A stretch of 64,000 nucleotides of DNA from Pyruvatibacter mobilis (lineage in GTDB: Bacteria > Pseudomonadota > Alphaproteobacteria > CGMCC-115125), in the NCBI RefSeq assembly GCF_012848855.1, contig NZ_CP051630.1, positions 1,653,501-1,717,500 of the forward strand, in the 5' to 3' direction. Numbering within the stretch: position 1 is the stretch's first letter; each line of letters starts with the position of its first letter. The translations under genes and the position numbers were made by a program. Below, one piece after another: positions 11,106 through 59,932 of this stretch. Below the pieces are notes generated by a model. That model was not told the DNA's origin and searched no databases. It saw only the letters and a program-made list of their open reading frames with translations.

Positions 11106-11134
11106 AAAGGCCGGGGCATGTCCCCGGCCTTTTT
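11106..11134 (+). terminator. Intrinsic terminator of glnA
   Basis: GGCCGGGG (11109-11116) pairs with CCCCGGCC (11122-11129) around a 5-base loop and is followed by five T residues. It lies 27 bp after the glnA stop. Confidence 0.9.
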
Positions 11135-11152
11135 CGTGGGCGCAGCTTTGCG

Positions 11153-12073
11153 TCAGGGTGCTTCAAGGGTGCCGTTACCACCTGCTTCCAGCATTTGCAT
11201 CAGGAACCGGGCCGCCGGGCCCGGGGGCGTTCGGGTGCGCCAGAGAGCGGCGAAGCGGCGCAGGGGCAGCTGGGCGATGCCGTCGCAGGCAAGATAGGCG
11301 AGCCGTCCCTGCGCAACGGCTTCGGCGGCGGCACTTGCCGGGACGAACCCCCATCCGGCTCCGCCCGCGATCAGGGCGATCTGGGTCGCGAGATCGTTGA
11401 CATGCCAGAGATCGGTCCTGTGCTGCCGGTAATCGGGGCGGGTGTTTTCATCCGTGGGCGGAAGGCCCGAGGGCAGGTAGATCTGCCGGTGATGCTCCAG
11501 CGTTTCGAGCGGCACAGGCGCGTTACGGGCGGCAAGGGCGTGGCGCGCGCCGATCACCACGGGCATTTCCTCCGCCAGCACCTGCCGGCCATCGAGGTCC
11601 TGCCAGGCCAGCCCGCGCTCCAGCGCAGTGATGCCCAGCTGCACCTCGCCGCCGGTGAGCCGGGCAATGACATCGCCGCCGGTGAGGTAGCTGAGATCGA
11701 CCGCCACTTCGGGATGCGCGTCAGCCAGCCGCGCAAGGCCGTGTGCCAACACCGCAGGCGGCAGGGAATGCTCCACCGCCAGCGACAGGGTTGTCTCGCT
11801 GGCCTCCCGCATGGCCGCGGCCTTGCCCTCCAGCCGCTCCACGCGCCGCAGCAGCACGCTCACCTCGCCCAGCAGCGCCTGCCCCTCCTCCGTCAGGCCG
11901 GCGCGGTAGCCACCGCGATCCACCAGGGTCAGGCCCAGATGGGTCTCCAGATTGGTGATGGCGTAGCTGATGGCTGAGACCTGGCGATTGAGCCTGCGGG
12001 CAGCCTCCGCGTAGCTGCCGAGCTCCGCCACCGCCTGGAACACGATGATCTGGTCGAGAAAATTGGGATGCAT
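11153..12073 (-). CDS. LysR-family transcriptional regulator
   Basis: The protein has 306 residues. The N-terminal winged helix (residues about 5-65) has FQAVAELGSYAEAARRLNRQ and SAISYAITNLETHLGLTLVDR. The effector-binding domain spans about 90-300. LysR proteins typically repress their own gene and activate a divergent neighbour with a co-inducer. Here the divergent neighbour is the Tat-exported amidase and darcynin pair, with two spaced direct repeats between them. It is convergent with glnA behind the glnA terminator and is unlikely to be related to nitrogen control. Confidence 0.9.
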   Translation of the reverse strand: MHPNFLDQIIVFQAVAELGSYAEAARRLNRQVSAISYAITNLETHLGLTLVDRGGYRAGLTEEGQALLGEVSVLLRRVERLEGKAAAMREASETTLSLAVEHSLPPAVLAHGLARLADAHPEVAVDLSYLTGGDVIARLTGGEVQLGITALERGLAWQDLDGRQVLAEEMPVVIGARHALAARNAPVPLETLEHHRQIYLPSGLPPTDENTRPDYRQHRTDLWHVNDLATQIALIAGGAGWGFVPASAAAEAVAQGRLAYLACDGIAQLPLRRFAALWRTRTPPGPAARFLMQMLEAGGNGTLEAP

Positions 12074-12085
12074 GGCCTGTTCTGA

Positions 12086-12120
12086 TTATCCGAATATGAT
12101 CTTCGGCTTTATCCGTATTT
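12086..12120. promoter_or_regulatory. Pair of direct repeats between LysR gene and amidase gene
   Basis: TTATCCGAATAT (12086-12097) and TTATCCGTATTT (12109-12120) share 10 of 12 bases and start 23 bp apart, about two helical turns. The stretch is A/T rich against a GC-rich background and lies 13 bp upstream of the LysR start. This is the expected position for LysR binding. Confidence 0.5.
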
Positions 12121-12187
12121 TCCAAACATGCTGCCATGCCTAGCTTTGCGGGACCAGATCACTGGCCAGCATGCGGGAGGAAATGAC

Positions 12188-13705
12188 ATGGCACCGCTCT
12201 CCGAAACCGGCATATCCCGGCGCACCTTCATCCAGACTTCGCTGGCGGGCACGGCCCTCGCCGCCCTGCCGACACCCCTGCGCGCAAAGCTGCCCGCCAT
12301 AGCGCGGGATCTTGCCCGGCTTGATGCCACCGCCCAGGCGGCGCTGGTGCGCGCAGGTGACGTGACCGCGTCCGATCTCGCGGAGGCTGCCATCGCCCGG
12401 ATCGAGGCGCTGAACCCGGCCCTAAACGCGATTGCCAGCAAGGGCTTTGAGGCGGGGCGCGCCCTGGCCCGCTCCGGACCGCCCGCCGGAGTGTTCAGCG
12501 GTGTGCCGTTTCTCATCAAGGACCTGATCGAGTTTCCGCCGCTGCCGCATATGGCGGGCTCGCGGCTGATGGCGTCGAATGTGGGCAGCTTCGCGTCCCC
12601 TTACGGCGCCCGCGTCAAGGAGGCCGGGCTGGTGGTGCTCGGCACCACCACGACGCCGGAGTTCGGCCTTCTGCCGACGACGGAGCCGCTGCTGACCGGG
12701 GCCACCCGCAACCCGTGGGATACGGACCGCATTGCCGGTGGCTCAAGCGGCGGCGCGGCGGCAGCGGTCGCCTCCGGCATGGTGCCCATTGCCCATGCGA
12801 GTGATGGCGGCGGGTCGATCCGCTTTCCGGCGGCCTGCTGCGGGGTGTTCGGGCTGAAGCCCAGCCGCGGACGCAATGTGGAGGCGCGCCGGGAGCCGAG
12901 CCCCATCGGCGTGGAGAACTGTTTCTCGCGGTCCGTGCGCGACAGCGCAGCGTTCCTGCACCAGACGCAGCAGCGCGGGCCGGACGCACCGCTCACCCCC
13001 CTGCCCCTCATCACCGCGCCGGGCACGCGCAAGCTGCGCATCGGCGTCACCGTGGCAAGCTATACGGGCAGCCTGCCGGATACCGACACCGCGGACGCTG
13101 TGATGGCGACGGCTGAGCTGTGCCGTGCGATGGGGCATGAGGTGGAGGAGGTGGCCTGGCCGTTTGACGGCCCGGCCTTCGTGGATCACTTCCTGACCCT
13201 GTGGGGGCTGGGGGCTGCGGCGATTGCGGCCAGGGCACGGGCGGCGCTGGGCCCTGACGCAGACCTGTCGACGGTGCTGGAACCCTGGACGCTGGGTCTG
13301 GCAGCCGAATACGGCCCGCGCGGCGAGGCGGGGGCTGCGGCCGCGTTCGAGAATTTCCGCCATGTGGCCGAGGCCATGGCCGGGTTCTTCGAGGATTATG
13401 ACCTGCTTCTGACCCCGGCCCAGAGCGAGCCCGCGCCTGCCATCGGCCACATGGCGCCGACGGTTGCCTTCGATGTTCTGCATGAGCGGGTGATGACCTT
13501 TGCCGCCTATACGCCCTGGCAGAATGCTGCCGGGACTCCGGCCATGTCGGTGCCGCTCTATCAAAGCACCGGCGGGCTGCCGATCGGGATCCAGTTTTCC
13601 GCCGCCATGGGCCGCGAGGACACGCTGCTGGAAATGGCCTATGCGCTTGAAGACGCCTTGCCCTGGGCGGACCGGTGGCCGGCGCACTCCGCCGTCACGC
13701 TGTAG
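12188..13705 (+). CDS. Amidase-signature hydrolase with Tat signal
   Basis: The protein has 505 residues. A twin-arginine signal (SRRTFIQTSLAGTALAAL, residues about 10-28) predicts folded export to the periplasm. The amidase-signature catalytic residues are visible: Lys in PFLIKDL, the cis-Ser in DGGGSIRFPA, and the nucleophile Ser in GGSSGGAAAAV. Family enzymes hydrolyse amides, including 6-aminohexanoate oligomers, aryl acylamides and peptide amides; the substrate is not readable. GGGAGG lies seven bases upstream of the ATG at 12188. It is divergent from the LysR regulator and followed 12 bp later by the darcynin gene. Confidence 0.92.
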   Translation: MAPLSETGISRRTFIQTSLAGTALAALPTPLRAKLPAIARDLARLDATAQAALVRAGDVTASDLAEAAIARIEALNPALNAIASKGFEAGRALARSGPPAGVFSGVPFLIKDLIEFPPLPHMAGSRLMASNVGSFASPYGARVKEAGLVVLGTTTTPEFGLLPTTEPLLTGATRNPWDTDRIAGGSSGGAAAAVASGMVPIAHASDGGGSIRFPAACCGVFGLKPSRGRNVEARREPSPIGVENCFSRSVRDSAAFLHQTQQRGPDAPLTPLPLITAPGTRKLRIGVTVASYTGSLPDTDTADAVMATAELCRAMGHEVEEVAWPFDGPAFVDHFLTLWGLGAAAIAARARAALGPDADLSTVLEPWTLGLAAEYGPRGEAGAAAAFENFRHVAEAMAGFFEDYDLLLTPAQSEPAPAIGHMAPTVAFDVLHERVMTFAAYTPWQNAAGTPAMSVPLYQSTGGLPIGIQFSAAMGREDTLLEMAYALEDALPWADRWPAHSAVTL

Positions 13706-13717
13706 GAGGGCCGTGCC

Positions 13718-14050
13718 ATGGGCGACGTCTATACGATCTTCATCCTGCTGCGGGCGCGGACCGCGTGGCTGAAGCTCAGCCATGCGGAGCGGGCGGCGAT
13801 CGGCCGGGCCGCCTTTGCCCGGCGCTTTGACGGCATGACCGTGCGCTATTTCGATGCGGAGGCCTTCACCGCCCAGTGCAGCGATGTGCTGGTGGTGGAG
13901 ACACCGCGCCTTGATGACCATCGCCGGCTGATGGACCATCTGCGCGACAGCGAAATTTTCGCGCATCCCTATTTTGACCTCGTGTCAGTCATCCCCGCTG
14001 TTGAGGATGTCTACCGGGACCTTTCGCCCGCAGCGGCGCAGGGCGGTTAG
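13718..14050 (+). CDS. Darcynin-family protein
   Basis: The protein has 110 residues. YTIFILLRARTAWLKLSHAER, VRYFDAEAFTAQCSDVLVVET and FDLVSVIPAVEDVYRD fit the darcynin family, a small cytoplasmic fold of unknown function. GGAGGG lies eight bases before the ATG at 13718. It is 12 bp after the amidase stop, so the two are very probably co-transcribed. A role in the amidase pathway is inference from position only. Confidence 0.8.
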   Translation: MGDVYTIFILLRARTAWLKLSHAERAAIGRAAFARRFDGMTVRYFDAEAFTAQCSDVLVVETPRLDDHRRLMDHLRDSEIFAHPYFDLVSVIPAVEDVYRDLSPAAAQGG

Positions 14051-14172
14051 GGTTATCTTCCGTTTACGGAGTTTCTGGCACATCTATTGGTCAGCAAAGC
14101 TGACTCGATTGTGCTTGATGCTGCACTGCAAAGAGATTCAAGCTTTGACCATAACAAAGGGAGGTTTGGAAG

Positions 14173-14205
14173 ATGACCCCACCGACGCAGGGCACTACGG
14201 CCTGA
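14173..14205 (+). CDS. Possible ten-codon leader peptide
   Basis: ATG at 14173 opens a ten-residue frame (MTPPTQGTTA) eight bases after AAAGGGAGG, one of the strongest ribosome-site matches in the window. It is followed within 30 bases by the hairpin GCAAAG-GCC-CTTTGC (14231-14245). The peptide has no known match and could be chance. It is listed because such a site upstream of serial hairpins suits a leader or small-protein role. Confidence 0.2.
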   Translation: MTPPTQGTTA

Positions 14206-14276
14206 GACGGCTTGTCTCGAAAAAGATGCGGCAAAGGCCCTTTGCAGAGCTACCCGACGCATGACCCAGGGCCTTT

Positions 14277-14297
14277 CATGCAGTGCAACACTGCATG
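14277..14297. repeat. Perfect 9-bp inverted repeat
   Basis: CATGCAGTG (14277-14285) and CACTGCATG (14289-14297) flank the trinucleotide CAA. It is the longest perfect stem in the gene-poor region apart from the terminator. It could be an RNA hairpin or an operator for a dimeric protein. Confidence 0.6.
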
Positions 14298-14934
14298 ACC
14301 CGGACGGACTTTCTGACGACCCTCAAGGAAACGGTGCGTTACCACGTGCGCTCTCGCGACTTATCGCTAACCCATGCACAAGACAGCGCTGAAGGCGTGG
14401 CGGCATCCGCTTCCGCAAAGACCGGCAGAAAGACATAATCCGCAGGCGGATTACCTTGAGAGGAGCACCCGCCTCCGGATGTCATCCCGGACGATCGATC
14501 CAGCCCCTGGCGGGCCAGGTTCCGGGACGTCCCTCCATCGCCTCGCCACGATCAGCGAACCACGATCGGCTGATCAAGGAGGCACCTCCGCATCACGGGA
14601 CCCGCCGGCATACGGCAGACCCTCACCTCTCCGGCACCGTGCCGGGGATACATAAAATCCGCGCGGGGGATTTCACCCGCAGGACTGGAAGACGGAAAGA
14701 CAGGATCAAAGTGCAGTTTGGCAGGCCCGCCCGAGACGCGATTGCCTGCAGCCGGATGGACTGAAAGGCGCCCCCCTGATGCGCAGCGTAAACCACCGGC
14801 CCCTCGCCCCGGCGATGCATCACCCGCATCGCGGTTGCGGCCCGGACGGACGCCCTGCACCGGCCCCTGTTGATCCACACCCAAAGAAGCCCGGCCCATA
14901 GGCTGAGGGCGGGGAGCTGAAACTCCCGAAAAAA

Positions 14935-14985
14935 GACGGCCCCGCGAGATGCGCTGCATCCACCAAGGCGGGGCCGTCGCTTTTT
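14935..14985. terminator. Strong bidirectional intrinsic terminator
   Basis: GACGGCCCCGC (14935-14945) pairs with GCGGGGCCGTC (14968-14978), an 11-bp GC-rich stem with a 22-base loop. On the plus strand GC then five T residues follow; on the minus strand six U residues follow (A-run at 14929-14934). It can end the minus-strand oxidoreductase transcript and any plus-strand RNA from the gene-poor region. Confidence 0.85.
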
Positions 14986-15037
14986 GTATGTTCCCGTTTG
15001 TGTTTGGTCGTTTCCGTGTGGCTGGAAGCCGGTGCGG

Positions 15038-16345
15038 TCAGGCGGCCTTTGCCATAGCCTTTGCGGCTTTCTGCTCGTTGGACATGTAGCTGCGCAGGGC
15101 CTTGAACACACTCATGCGGGTGTCCGGGTTCTGGCCGTCGCCCATGCGCATGATCTGCAGGCAGTACCAGCCCTGCACACCCCAGGCATTGAGGCCGCGA
15201 ATGAGGTCGATGGGGCTGTTGGGGCCGAAGATGCGCGTCGGGCCGAGGCGCAGTTCCTTTTCCCATTTGCGCACTTCGCTGACGGACCCGTCCAGCAGCT
15301 TGTTGGGCAGGGCCGCATCGACGCAGAGCGGGCGGGCGATGCCGACCACATCCGTATCGCCGGAGGCCAGCGCCTCGTTCATGGCAGCGATCGTGCGGAA
15401 GCCGCCGGTGACCATCAGCGGCGTCTTGCCGACGGCCTTGGAGATGTCGCTGGCATATTCAAGGAAGTAAGCCTCACGCTTGCGGGTGGAGGAGCGGACC
15501 TTTTCCTCGTAGACGGGCTCAAAGCCCTCGGTGTCCATCATCACCGGCTGCTCGTAATTGCCGCCGGAAACCTCCAGCAGGTCGAGGCCCGCATCGTCGA
15601 GCCATTTGGCGACCTGGATCGAATCCTGGTGGCTGAAGCCGCCCTTCTGGAAGTCGGATGAGTTGAGCTTCACCGAGATGGGGAAATCAGCCCCCACCCT
15701 GGCGCGCACGGCCTTGACGGTTTCCATCAGCAGGCGGGCGCGGTTCTCGAGGCTGCCGCCCCATTCATCGGTGCGCTGGTTGACGCGCGGATTGAGGAAT
15801 TCCGAAATCAGGTAGCCATGGGCGCCGTGGATCTGCACGCCGGTGAAGCCGGTTTCGCGGGCGATGCCGGCGGCATGGGCGAAGCGCTGGATGATGTCCT
15901 CGATCTCGTCACCGGTCAGCGCGCGGGGCTTGCCGAACTGGCCGCCCGGCATTTCCACCTCGATGGCGGAGGGGGCCACCGGCTCCTGGGTGACGGCTGC
16001 CGGGGTCTGGCGGCCGGCATGGGACAATTGCATCCATAGATGGGTGCCGTTGCGGGTGCCCGCCTCGGCATAGGCGGCAAGGGCGGCCCGCTGCTCGTTG
16101 GACTGGGGACCTTCGATCACCACATTGCCCGGCCGCTCAAGGTAGCGGCGGTCCACCTGCACATTGCCGGTGAGCAGCATGCCGCTGCCGCCATCCGCCC
16201 AGCGCTCATACAGGCGCACATGGCGCGCGGTGGCGCGGTTTTGCGGGTCAGCCAGCCCCTCGGTCATCGCGCCCTTGGCGATGCGGTTCTTGAGGGTGGC
16301 GCCGCATGGCAGGGTCAGCGGCGAATTGATGGTGGTGTCGGACAT
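15038..16345 (-). CDS. NADH:flavin oxidoreductase, Old Yellow Enzyme family
   Basis: The protein has 435 residues in a single FMN-binding TIM barrel. Diagnostic stretches are LKNRIAKGAMTEGLADP near the start, LWMQLSHAGRQTP, TGVQIHGAHGYLISEFLNP then NQRTDEWGGSLENR, and the C-terminal phosphate site PLMVTGGFR...DVVGIARPL. No NADH-binding or 4Fe-4S C-terminal extension follows, so this is the short form. Members reduce activated C=C bonds or nitro groups; the substrate is unknown. The ATG at 16345 has GGAGG 11 bases upstream; a longer frame to 16468 lacks support. Confidence 0.9.
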   Translation of the reverse strand: MSDTTINSPLTLPCGATLKNRIAKGAMTEGLADPQNRATARHVRLYERWADGGSGMLLTGNVQVDRRYLERPGNVVIEGPQSNEQRAALAAYAEAGTRNGTHLWMQLSHAGRQTPAAVTQEPVAPSAIEVEMPGGQFGKPRALTGDEIEDIIQRFAHAAGIARETGFTGVQIHGAHGYLISEFLNPRVNQRTDEWGGSLENRARLLMETVKAVRARVGADFPISVKLNSSDFQKGGFSHQDSIQVAKWLDDAGLDLLEVSGGNYEQPVMMDTEGFEPVYEEKVRSSTRKREAYFLEYASDISKAVGKTPLMVTGGFRTIAAMNEALASGDTDVVGIARPLCVDAALPNKLLDGSVSEVRKWEKELRLGPTRIFGPNSPIDLIRGLNAWGVQGWYCLQIMRMGDGQNPDTRMSVFKALRSYMSNEQKAAKAMAKAA

Positions 16346-16682
16346 GGCTGCGTCGGCCTCCTGAGTGGACTGCGAATTCCGGCGCAGACGGGAGGCCCGT
16401 GGCAAGCCCCCTCTTTGCCAGCATGCAAAAACGAATGAGTCAGGCCGTCGGAAATGACTGCCGTTCAATTCAGCTAACCACAGTCAGCCGCACATTCAAG
16501 GCGCTTTGCCCAATGGCGGAAGCGGCCGCAGCGGGCGGCTGTCGCGGCGGGGCGCAATTTTGCCGTTCCGGCGTGTAAACTTGGTGCGAATCAGACACTT
16601 CATCCCGACGTCCATCTTCCGTCGCGGGGCGATGTGGCCTAACAAGGCTGCCCGCTTCGTTCCCTAGCTGTTCCGGATTTCC
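16346..16682. other. Divergent intergenic region upstream of parE
   Basis: The 337 bp separate the oxidoreductase gene (minus) from parE (plus). The oxidoreductase ribosome site lies at the left edge. I see no gene, terminator or convincing promoter hexamers; both promoters must lie here because the genes diverge. Confidence 0.5.
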
Positions 16683-58176: not shown

Positions 58177-59676
58177 TCAGCTGCCCGGCGGGAAGCCAAG
58201 CACGCCGAGGCCCGCGCCGTTCGGATCCGCGCCGAAGACGCAGGCCGCATTGTCACGCGGGGCCCCGTCCGGGCAGGCCACCACATTCACCTTGCCCTGT
58301 GCGTCAGAGACCGTGGCCGCCTGCGCCGCCTTGATGTCAGCGGAACGGACGATGAGGCTGTCGGCCAGGTCCAGCACGGCGGCGGGGGCCTGAGGGCCGC
58401 CCGCACCGGCACCGGCATAGAAGAAGGTGCCGTTGAAGTCGTTGGTGATGAGGGCGGGAGCGAGGAAGGCGCCGGCGAGGCCGAAGCCTGGGGCATCCGG
58501 CGCGCGGGCCGGCACGATGCCGGAGCCGGGTACGACGCGGCCGGTGCCGAAGGGGCCGTTCATGGTGACGGCGCAGGCGGCCGCATCACCGCCTGCCGTG
58601 GCGACCACGAAGGCAGTGGACCCGAATATGGCGGGGAGATTGGTTTCAGCGCCTGCCTGGGCCAGCGCGTTCCGGGCGGCCTGAAGGAGGCTTGCGCCGT
58701 CAGACGACTGGGCGGCGGGCCAGAGTGACGCCATGTAGCGGCCCGCGCCGGTATTGGCGGCGGGCAGCGACAGGGTTTGGTTGCCGACCTTGATGGCCTG
58801 GGCGGGCTCGGAGCTCGGCCGGTAGGCCCGCAGCTCTTCCACCGACATGGCGGTGCCGAGCAGGCGGGCTTCGGCGGCAAAGGCCTCGGCCATGTTGCCG
58901 GCATAGATGCCGCGGGCGCCATTGGCGCGGACCTGGCCAAGGGCGGCGGCGAGTTCCGGCTGCACCAGCATGTCGCCTTCCTGCAGCGGAGCACCGGTCG
59001 GTTTCAGATAGATGCCGGCGAGCGCCGGGCGGGTGCGCAGGGCGGGGGCGAGCGGCGCGAGTTCACGGGCGAAAGCGCGGGAGACCTCATGGCCCTGGGC
59101 GGCCAGCACTTCCGCCGGGGTGACAAGGCTCGACCACTGGGCGCTGCCATGGACGGCATGCATGAGCGCGAAGCCGCGCACATTGCCCGGAATGGCGACG
59201 GGGCCACCTGCGCGGGAGCGGCGGGCGAGGAAATTGTAGCTCGTCACTTCGCGGCTGTCGGGGTCGTGCACGAGGCAGAGACCGCCGCCGCCGAGGCCCG
59301 CTGCATGCGGCATGGTGACCGAGAGCTGGAAATAGAGCGCGGTGATGGCATCCACCGCCGTGCCGCCATTTTCCAGCACCTCGCGGGCGGCAAGGGCGGC
59401 GCGCGGCTCATCCGCCACGATAGCACCGACAAAATCGCTCTGGTCGGGCAGATCGGCGAGTTGGAGGCCGAAATCATCCACCGCGCCGGCCTGGAAGCTG
59501 GCGGTCTCGAGATCGCGCCCGCCATCCGCGCCGGAGGAACAGGCGGCGAGGCCGAGCGTCAGTGCGGCAGTTGCCGCCATGGTGGCCAAATGGCGCAGGG
59601 AATGACCGCCTGCGGTCCCCTCCCCTTCGGTCAGGCTTGCCTTTTTCCGGCCATGGCGACGGAGTAGTTCTGTCAT
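58177..59676 (-). CDS. Divergent gamma-glutamyltransferase-like lipoprotein
   Basis: The protein has 499 residues. A lipobox (LTLGLAACSSG) implies membrane anchoring; the n-region before it is long, so the true start could be further in (ATG at 59580). GGT-like segments are REVLENGGTAVDAITALYF, MPHAAGLGGGGLCLVHDP and CAVTMNGPFGTGRVVPGSGI. The usual TTHYSV nucleophile site is GSTAFVVATAGGDAA here, and the later GSPGG oxyanion region is replaced by GAGAGGPQAPAAV. So the fold is GGT-like but classical transfer activity is doubtful. It is upstream of, and seven bases from, the aminotransferase. Confidence 0.8.
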   Translation of the reverse strand: MTELLRRHGRKKASLTEGEGTAGGHSLRHLATMAATAALTLGLAACSSGADGGRDLETASFQAGAVDDFGLQLADLPDQSDFVGAIVADEPRAALAAREVLENGGTAVDAITALYFQLSVTMPHAAGLGGGGLCLVHDPDSREVTSYNFLARRSRAGGPVAIPGNVRGFALMHAVHGSAQWSSLVTPAEVLAAQGHEVSRAFARELAPLAPALRTRPALAGIYLKPTGAPLQEGDMLVQPELAAALGQVRANGARGIYAGNMAEAFAAEARLLGTAMSVEELRAYRPSSEPAQAIKVGNQTLSLPAANTGAGRYMASLWPAAQSSDGASLLQAARNALAQAGAETNLPAIFGSTAFVVATAGGDAAACAVTMNGPFGTGRVVPGSGIVPARAPDAPGFGLAGAFLAPALITNDFNGTFFYAGAGAGGPQAPAAVLDLADSLIVRSADIKAAQAATVSDAQGKVNVVACPDGAPRDNAACVFGADPNGAGLGVLGFPPGS

Positions 59677-59932
59677 CTCGTTCAACACCACGCGAGCTTC
59701 GCTGTCGTTAGATTGACGGGCAATTTCGCCCTGCCTACCGTGAGATGCAAGTCGGCATTCTCCCCTGCCTTACTCCCTAGCCTTATTGGGCGTCGTTTAA
59801 CCATGACGCATATCAGTGCGGGACCCGGGGGATCATGCATGGCTGGCTTACGCAGCCGAACCTCAGCCGGGCCCGCAGCGTTGACCGCGACGACCATGAT
59901 TGAGGCGTAGATCCGGGCCCCGGGGACTGACC

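Follow-up and report, generated by a model that had tools for sequence, protein, structure and literature searches.

The locus and its neighbours

The 64-kb window analysed extends over bases 1653501-1717500 of a complete alphaproteobacterial genome of 3.33 Mb, and all positions below are counted from its first base. The first-pass annotation of this window had pointed to about 1 kb of DNA without a gene, closed by a terminator. This gap is real, and the sizeable frames of 13974-15266 gave no match to Pfam or PHROGs. It follows a darcynin-like gene (13718-14050, + strand, identified by Pfam), the last gene of a block at 11153-14050 that was defined by Pfam and synteny and contains a LysR regulator (- strand), an amidase (+ strand) and the darcynin-like protein (+ strand). 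The amidase of this block carries a Tat-like signal. Upstream of the block, glnA has a terminator of its own on the + strand (11109-11136, GGCCGGGG...CCCCGGCC TTTTT). Beyond the 3' end of the element lies an NADH:flavin oxidoreductase gene (15038-16351, - strand), convergent with it, and the next gene is parE, named by its sequence. No tRNA or tmRNA was found in the 64-kb window.

The order to which the host belongs is sampled by four genomes, all of one genus, and the comparison was made with the two relatives in which the locus is covered, G001 and G003. In both, the gene order is glnA, a homologous element of about 600 nt, the convergent oxidoreductase and parE; glnA likewise has its own terminator there and lies directly upstream of the RNA locus. 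Only the window species has the LysR-amidase-darcynin block between its glnA and the element; G001 and G003 lack it at this place. In the remaining congener, G002, whose assembly is 81% complete and fragmented, no convincing match to the element, to the oxidoreductase or to glnA was obtained at the thresholds used, and therefore the locus is probably absent from that assembly.

A DNA search found the element in two congeners only, G001 and G003, and no match was obtained outside the genus in 385 genomes of the class and 398 of the phylum. A covariance model built on the 5' conserved block (block A, below) gave strong matches in genus members only when run on the class genomes, and matched the window's own genome only in the phylum set; weak matches in class genomes (E 0.004-0.05) were treated as chance. 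Phage-borne copies were rejected, as exact conserved words are absent from the IMG/VR viral contigs. Among the GTDB contigs, four unrelated genomes contain an exact 19-mer of the terminator loop, a recurrence judged to be due to chance from the word length and the size of the collection. The locus lies near the contig midpoint, and a replication-terminus element was considered as well; it was set aside, since no dnaA-like long ORF was found in the first 4 kb and the sampled skew showed no clear switch exactly here.

Conserved blocks and a variable spacer

When the window was aligned with G001, three islands were recovered, named A, B and C from 5' to 3' on the + strand, and the parts between them were unalignable and longer in the window. 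Block A (14089-14195) shares 82% identity with G001 and 84% with G003 and contains an invariant run of 27 nt, CTTGATGCTGCACTGCAAAGAGATTCA (14114-14140). At the 5' border of conservation stands the P1 stem-loop (GGTCAGC-aaa-GCTGAC, 14088-14107, 8 pairs), which is the same in the three species apart from one C-G to U-G change and a varying loop. Block A is followed by a window-specific expansion (14196-14329), about 95 nt longer than in the relatives according to the alignment gaps. Block B (14330-14390) is 85% identical to both relatives and 100% identical between them; it contains a GTGCG/CGTGC hairpin inside 14333-14351 and AACCCATGCACAAG at 14369-14382. The diverged middle (14391-14887) measures 497 nt against about 285 nt in the relatives and gave no blastn match. 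Finally, block C (14888-14990), 87-88% identical, is made of two small hairpins followed by the intrinsic terminator (14935-14984), which has an 11-bp stem, a 22-nt loop with a nested GATGC-gct-GCATC and a T-tract. The closing 11-bp terminator with T-tracts on both strands had been annotated correctly, 14935-14945 pairing with 14968-14978; its stem and 22-nt loop are invariant across the three species, and the convergent oxidoreductase gene can use it as well. No promoter of consensus type was recovered for the element, and a sigma-54-like motif around 14076-14091 was rejected, not being retained in the relatives.

Genes aligned around the element are mostly 66-84% identical between the window and the relatives. 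The three blocks are alignable where most intergenic DNA of the syntenic 64 kb is not, and few other noncoding stretches of it align independently. G001 and G003 share 96.7% identity over the 600-nt element, spacer included. For comparison, the regional mean is about 90%, the neighbouring genes reach 72-73% at their third codon positions, and the DNA just past the terminator 70%. This value of 96.7% lies within the upper few percent of windows and is not unique. Part of it could reflect a recombination tract, because glnA also has stretches of high third-position identity: along this gene, the third-codon identity of G001 and G003 ranges between 0.54 and 0.955.

Hairpins, folding energy and the sparing of predicted pairs

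The stretch had been described as rich in hairpins, and the stems listed were found to be correct: those of 7 bp at 14436-14453, 14550-14575 and 14812-14832 are present, and the perfect stem placed at 14277-14297 exists too, with 10 bp at 14276-14298, inside the window-specific expansion, rather than the 9 bp reported. Lack of any excess over dinucleotide-shuffled controls had been proposed as grounds for abandoning the RNA idea, and formally there is an excess. Perfect stems of at least 6 bp number 12 against 4.2 +/- 2.1 in dinucleotide shuffles, with none of 200 reaching 12, and those of at least 7 bp number 4 against 1.06, a count reached by 2% of shuffles. The total folding energy of 14051-15000 corresponds to z = -4.0 on the + strand and -4.5 on the - strand. 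Nevertheless, both the density of hairpins and the total folding energy are unexceptional in comparison with neighbouring coding DNA. Elsewhere in these 64 kb, windows of 987 nt hold 6.8 +/- 2.6 stems of at least 6 bp on average and several reach 12-14, while removal of the terminator brings the folding z-score to -2.65, in a range of 0.3 to -3.7 for equal-length windows elsewhere, neighbouring genes included. Because other windows match these stem counts and z-scores, hairpin richness alone is ordinary here, and the shuffled-control measure is not diagnostic, since coding neighbours pass it too. Excess folding as a proof of RNA was thus rejected. Moreover, judged from the comparison with G001 and G003, the hairpins listed earlier fall mostly in the diverged, fast-evolving parts. 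What makes the locus special is the conservation of part of the stretch across species, not its hairpins, and this feature is invisible from a single sequence. It is cross-species comparison, not folding energy, that separates a real RNA gene from the hairpins of a GC-rich background.

Alignment of homologous loci with a check for covariation had been suggested in the same annotation. Homologues were found in G001 and G003; strong covariation is not demonstrable with three sequences of which two are close. P1, the block B hairpin, the 3' hairpins and the terminator are kept in the three species. Across five helices of the 5' domain, all 7 of the 7 variable pairs stay paired, all by single-sided changes and in a structure derived from the same three sequences. 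Folding of each sequence by itself does not favour the long-range consensus helices P2-P4. For a pair-breaking test, one species, G001 or G003, was folded and the substitutions of the other were placed on the fold. On the + strand, 3 pairs were broken in the G001 fold against 7.9 expected (p = 0.005) and 5 in the G003 fold against 8.1 expected (p = 0.07); on the - strand, predicted pairs were not spared. One compensatory pair, G-C to A-U between G001 and G003, was detected at L037 2638/2652, within a spacer hairpin of 7 bp. With three sequences, all of a single genus and two of them closely related, this pattern of substitutions is suggestive of a structured + strand RNA.

A further pairing was noticed at the 5' end, where GGTTATCTTCC (14051-14061) is complementary to GGAAGATGACC (14168-14178) over 11 bp with one G-U. 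GGAAGATGACC contains the ATG of the short ORF described below, and the pairing could form an alternative fold hiding this start codon. Its counterpart in the relatives is weaker and bulged.

A short reading frame, competing explanations and the RNA reading

The frames of G001, like those of the window, gave no Pfam match. A codon test on the 20 substitutions between G001 and G003 revealed no synonymous excess in any of the six frames, and indels among the species break the apparent reading frames. A protein gene was therefore rejected: no domain match, no synonymous bias and no frame kept between species. The sole ORF-like feature retained across species is a Shine-Dalgarno-like GGGAGG (14159-14164, + strand), 8 nt before an ATG at 14173 that opens a candidate ORF of 10 codons, MTPPTQGTTA (within 14159-14205, from sequence and alignments). 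In the relatives the ORF reads MTPPTYWAPL, so that MTPPT is common to the three species and the ends differ.

This ORF is the basis of a first alternative, in which the Shine-Dalgarno and ATG (14159-14175) drive a small protein or leader peptide and the rest is an untranslated tail; were both halves functional, this would amount to a dual-function RNA. The invariance of GGGAGG and of its 8-nt spacing, the variation of codons 2 and 4 at the third position only, and the stop after exactly 10 codons in both versions all speak for translation. On the other hand, codons 6-10 are unrelated between species and their alignment needs a 2-nt shift, the Shine-Dalgarno is predicted to be mostly paired (P unpaired 0.11-0.25), and 10 codons leave the conservation of blocks B and C unexplained. 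We consider this explanation unlikely.

Neighbouring short elements unrelated to one another, with promoter or regulatory DNA in blocks A and B and a terminator for convergent genes in block C, would involve no single long RNA. Such a terminator requires no RNA gene, and from B to C the window and the relatives share no conserved spacer, as this explanation would have it; however, the order of the blocks is maintained and the entire 600 nt, spacer included, is conserved between G001 and G003. In addition, glnA is self-terminated in the relatives, and therefore a + strand terminator past block C needs another + strand transcript. It seems to us quite improbable that the blocks are separate.

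The stretch might also be a long 3' untranslated region of the amidase-darcynin operon, in keeping with the window, where no + strand terminator was recognised from the darcynin-like stop (14050) to the end of the element, but in both relatives the element follows a terminated glnA and these genes are missing, which leaves this with very little likelihood. Decay of a protein gene or mobile element would account for the long diverged middle and the variation in length, but it is hardly to be expected given the conserved islands, the low substitution in the relatives and the lack of a homologous protein family, of repeats and of further copies in the genome.

Being intergenic, conserved and devoid of coding signal, the element shares these properties with independent bacterial noncoding RNA genes. 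Since there is no recognisable protein and yet the same place and the same stop signal are found in two relatives, the element probably encodes a long RNA. We rate as reasonably probable an independent, lineage-restricted noncoding RNA gene on the + strand, whose 5' and 3' domains are conserved and whose spacer varies. The choice left by the first-pass annotation, a long structured RNA or a cluster of palindromic elements, thus leans towards the long RNA, on the strength of the synteny, the independent unit context, the invariant terminator and the lack of a coding signal. A palindromic cluster was rejected: direct repeats are absent, the genome holds no further copy, and most of the listed palindromes are found where the sequence has diverged.

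For this RNA, transcription, the ends and the pairing of the 5' domain are inferred as follows. Transcription of the + strand would start close to 14050-14090 and stop at the terminator (14935-14984), giving a transcript of about 0.9 kb here and about 0.6 kb in the sister species, in which blocks A and B would form a 5' domain and block C a 3' domain, joined by a rapidly evolving structured spacer. It might act as a regulatory RNA whose 5' domain makes the GGGAGG/ATG segment accessible or masks it, with the 3' domain perhaps serving as a stable terminator end, and the 10-codon ORF could serve as a translated leader or merely as a decoy for ribosome binding. The full proposal, an undescribed family of two-domain structured RNAs of 0.6-0.9 kb, with a fast-evolving spacer, known to date only from an alphaproteobacterial order of a single genus and working mechanistically through a sequestered Shine-Dalgarno/ATG, is tentative and as a whole rather doubtful.

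The long RNA is probably of a kind not yet described. The earlier statement that the stretch bears no signature of RNase P, tmRNA, SRP, a group II intron or a riboswitch was borne out, as the whole Rfam 15 library at gathering score gave 0 matches in the window; a permissive search of 13950-15100 gave chance-level matches only (E of 1.9 or more). The two-piece tmRNA, RNase P, SRP and 6S RNAs of alphaproteobacteria are, like the element, chromosomal structured RNAs, but none has a covariance-model match at the locus and these identities were rejected; the genome's only alpha tmRNA match (RF01849, 303 bits) sits elsewhere, at 727886-728273.

RNAIII and SgrS are dual-function regulatory RNAs. Like them, the element is intergenic and combines a short ORF, preceded by a Shine-Dalgarno, with an intrinsic terminator at its 3' end, but it is without an Rfam match and its ORF has just 10 codons, the second half unconserved. 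GOLLD, ROOL and OLE, large ornate noncoding structured RNAs of bacteria, are comparable to it in size only: the element has no covariance-model match to them, and its three sequences show no extensive multi-helix covariation. Many GOLLD RNAs exceed 800 nt, and GOLLD and ROOL are borne by phages or prophages, often near tRNA islands (PMC12286853), whereas the context of the element is one of chromosomal housekeeping genes, with no tRNA in the window.

Bacteria have few long noncoding RNAs beyond the ribosomal and housekeeping set, and the function of only a few of these is known. If the reading as an RNA gene is true, a lineage-restricted RNA amid chromosomal housekeeping genes would be a good subject for the origin of long RNAs, and its sharply bounded conserved ends and fast-changing middle would add to its value for such studies.

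Two other conserved stretches were met during the comparison. The first, at 59638-59769 of the window, spans the start and upstream leader of a - strand gene (58177-59691, gamma-glutamyltranspeptidase-like by eye); its 132 bp, containing GGGCGAAATTGCCC, are 87% identical to G001 and near-invariant between G001 and G003, and no Rfam match was obtained for it. It appears to be a leader or promoter that is better conserved than the surrounding genes. The second, L084 1000-1350 (G001:C2:533500-533850), has no clear coding ORF and no Rfam match of its own; it is 99% identical between G001 and G003 and ranks in the top two for conservation among the 300-nt windows of 120 kb, and a tRNA lies near it, at L084 734-806.
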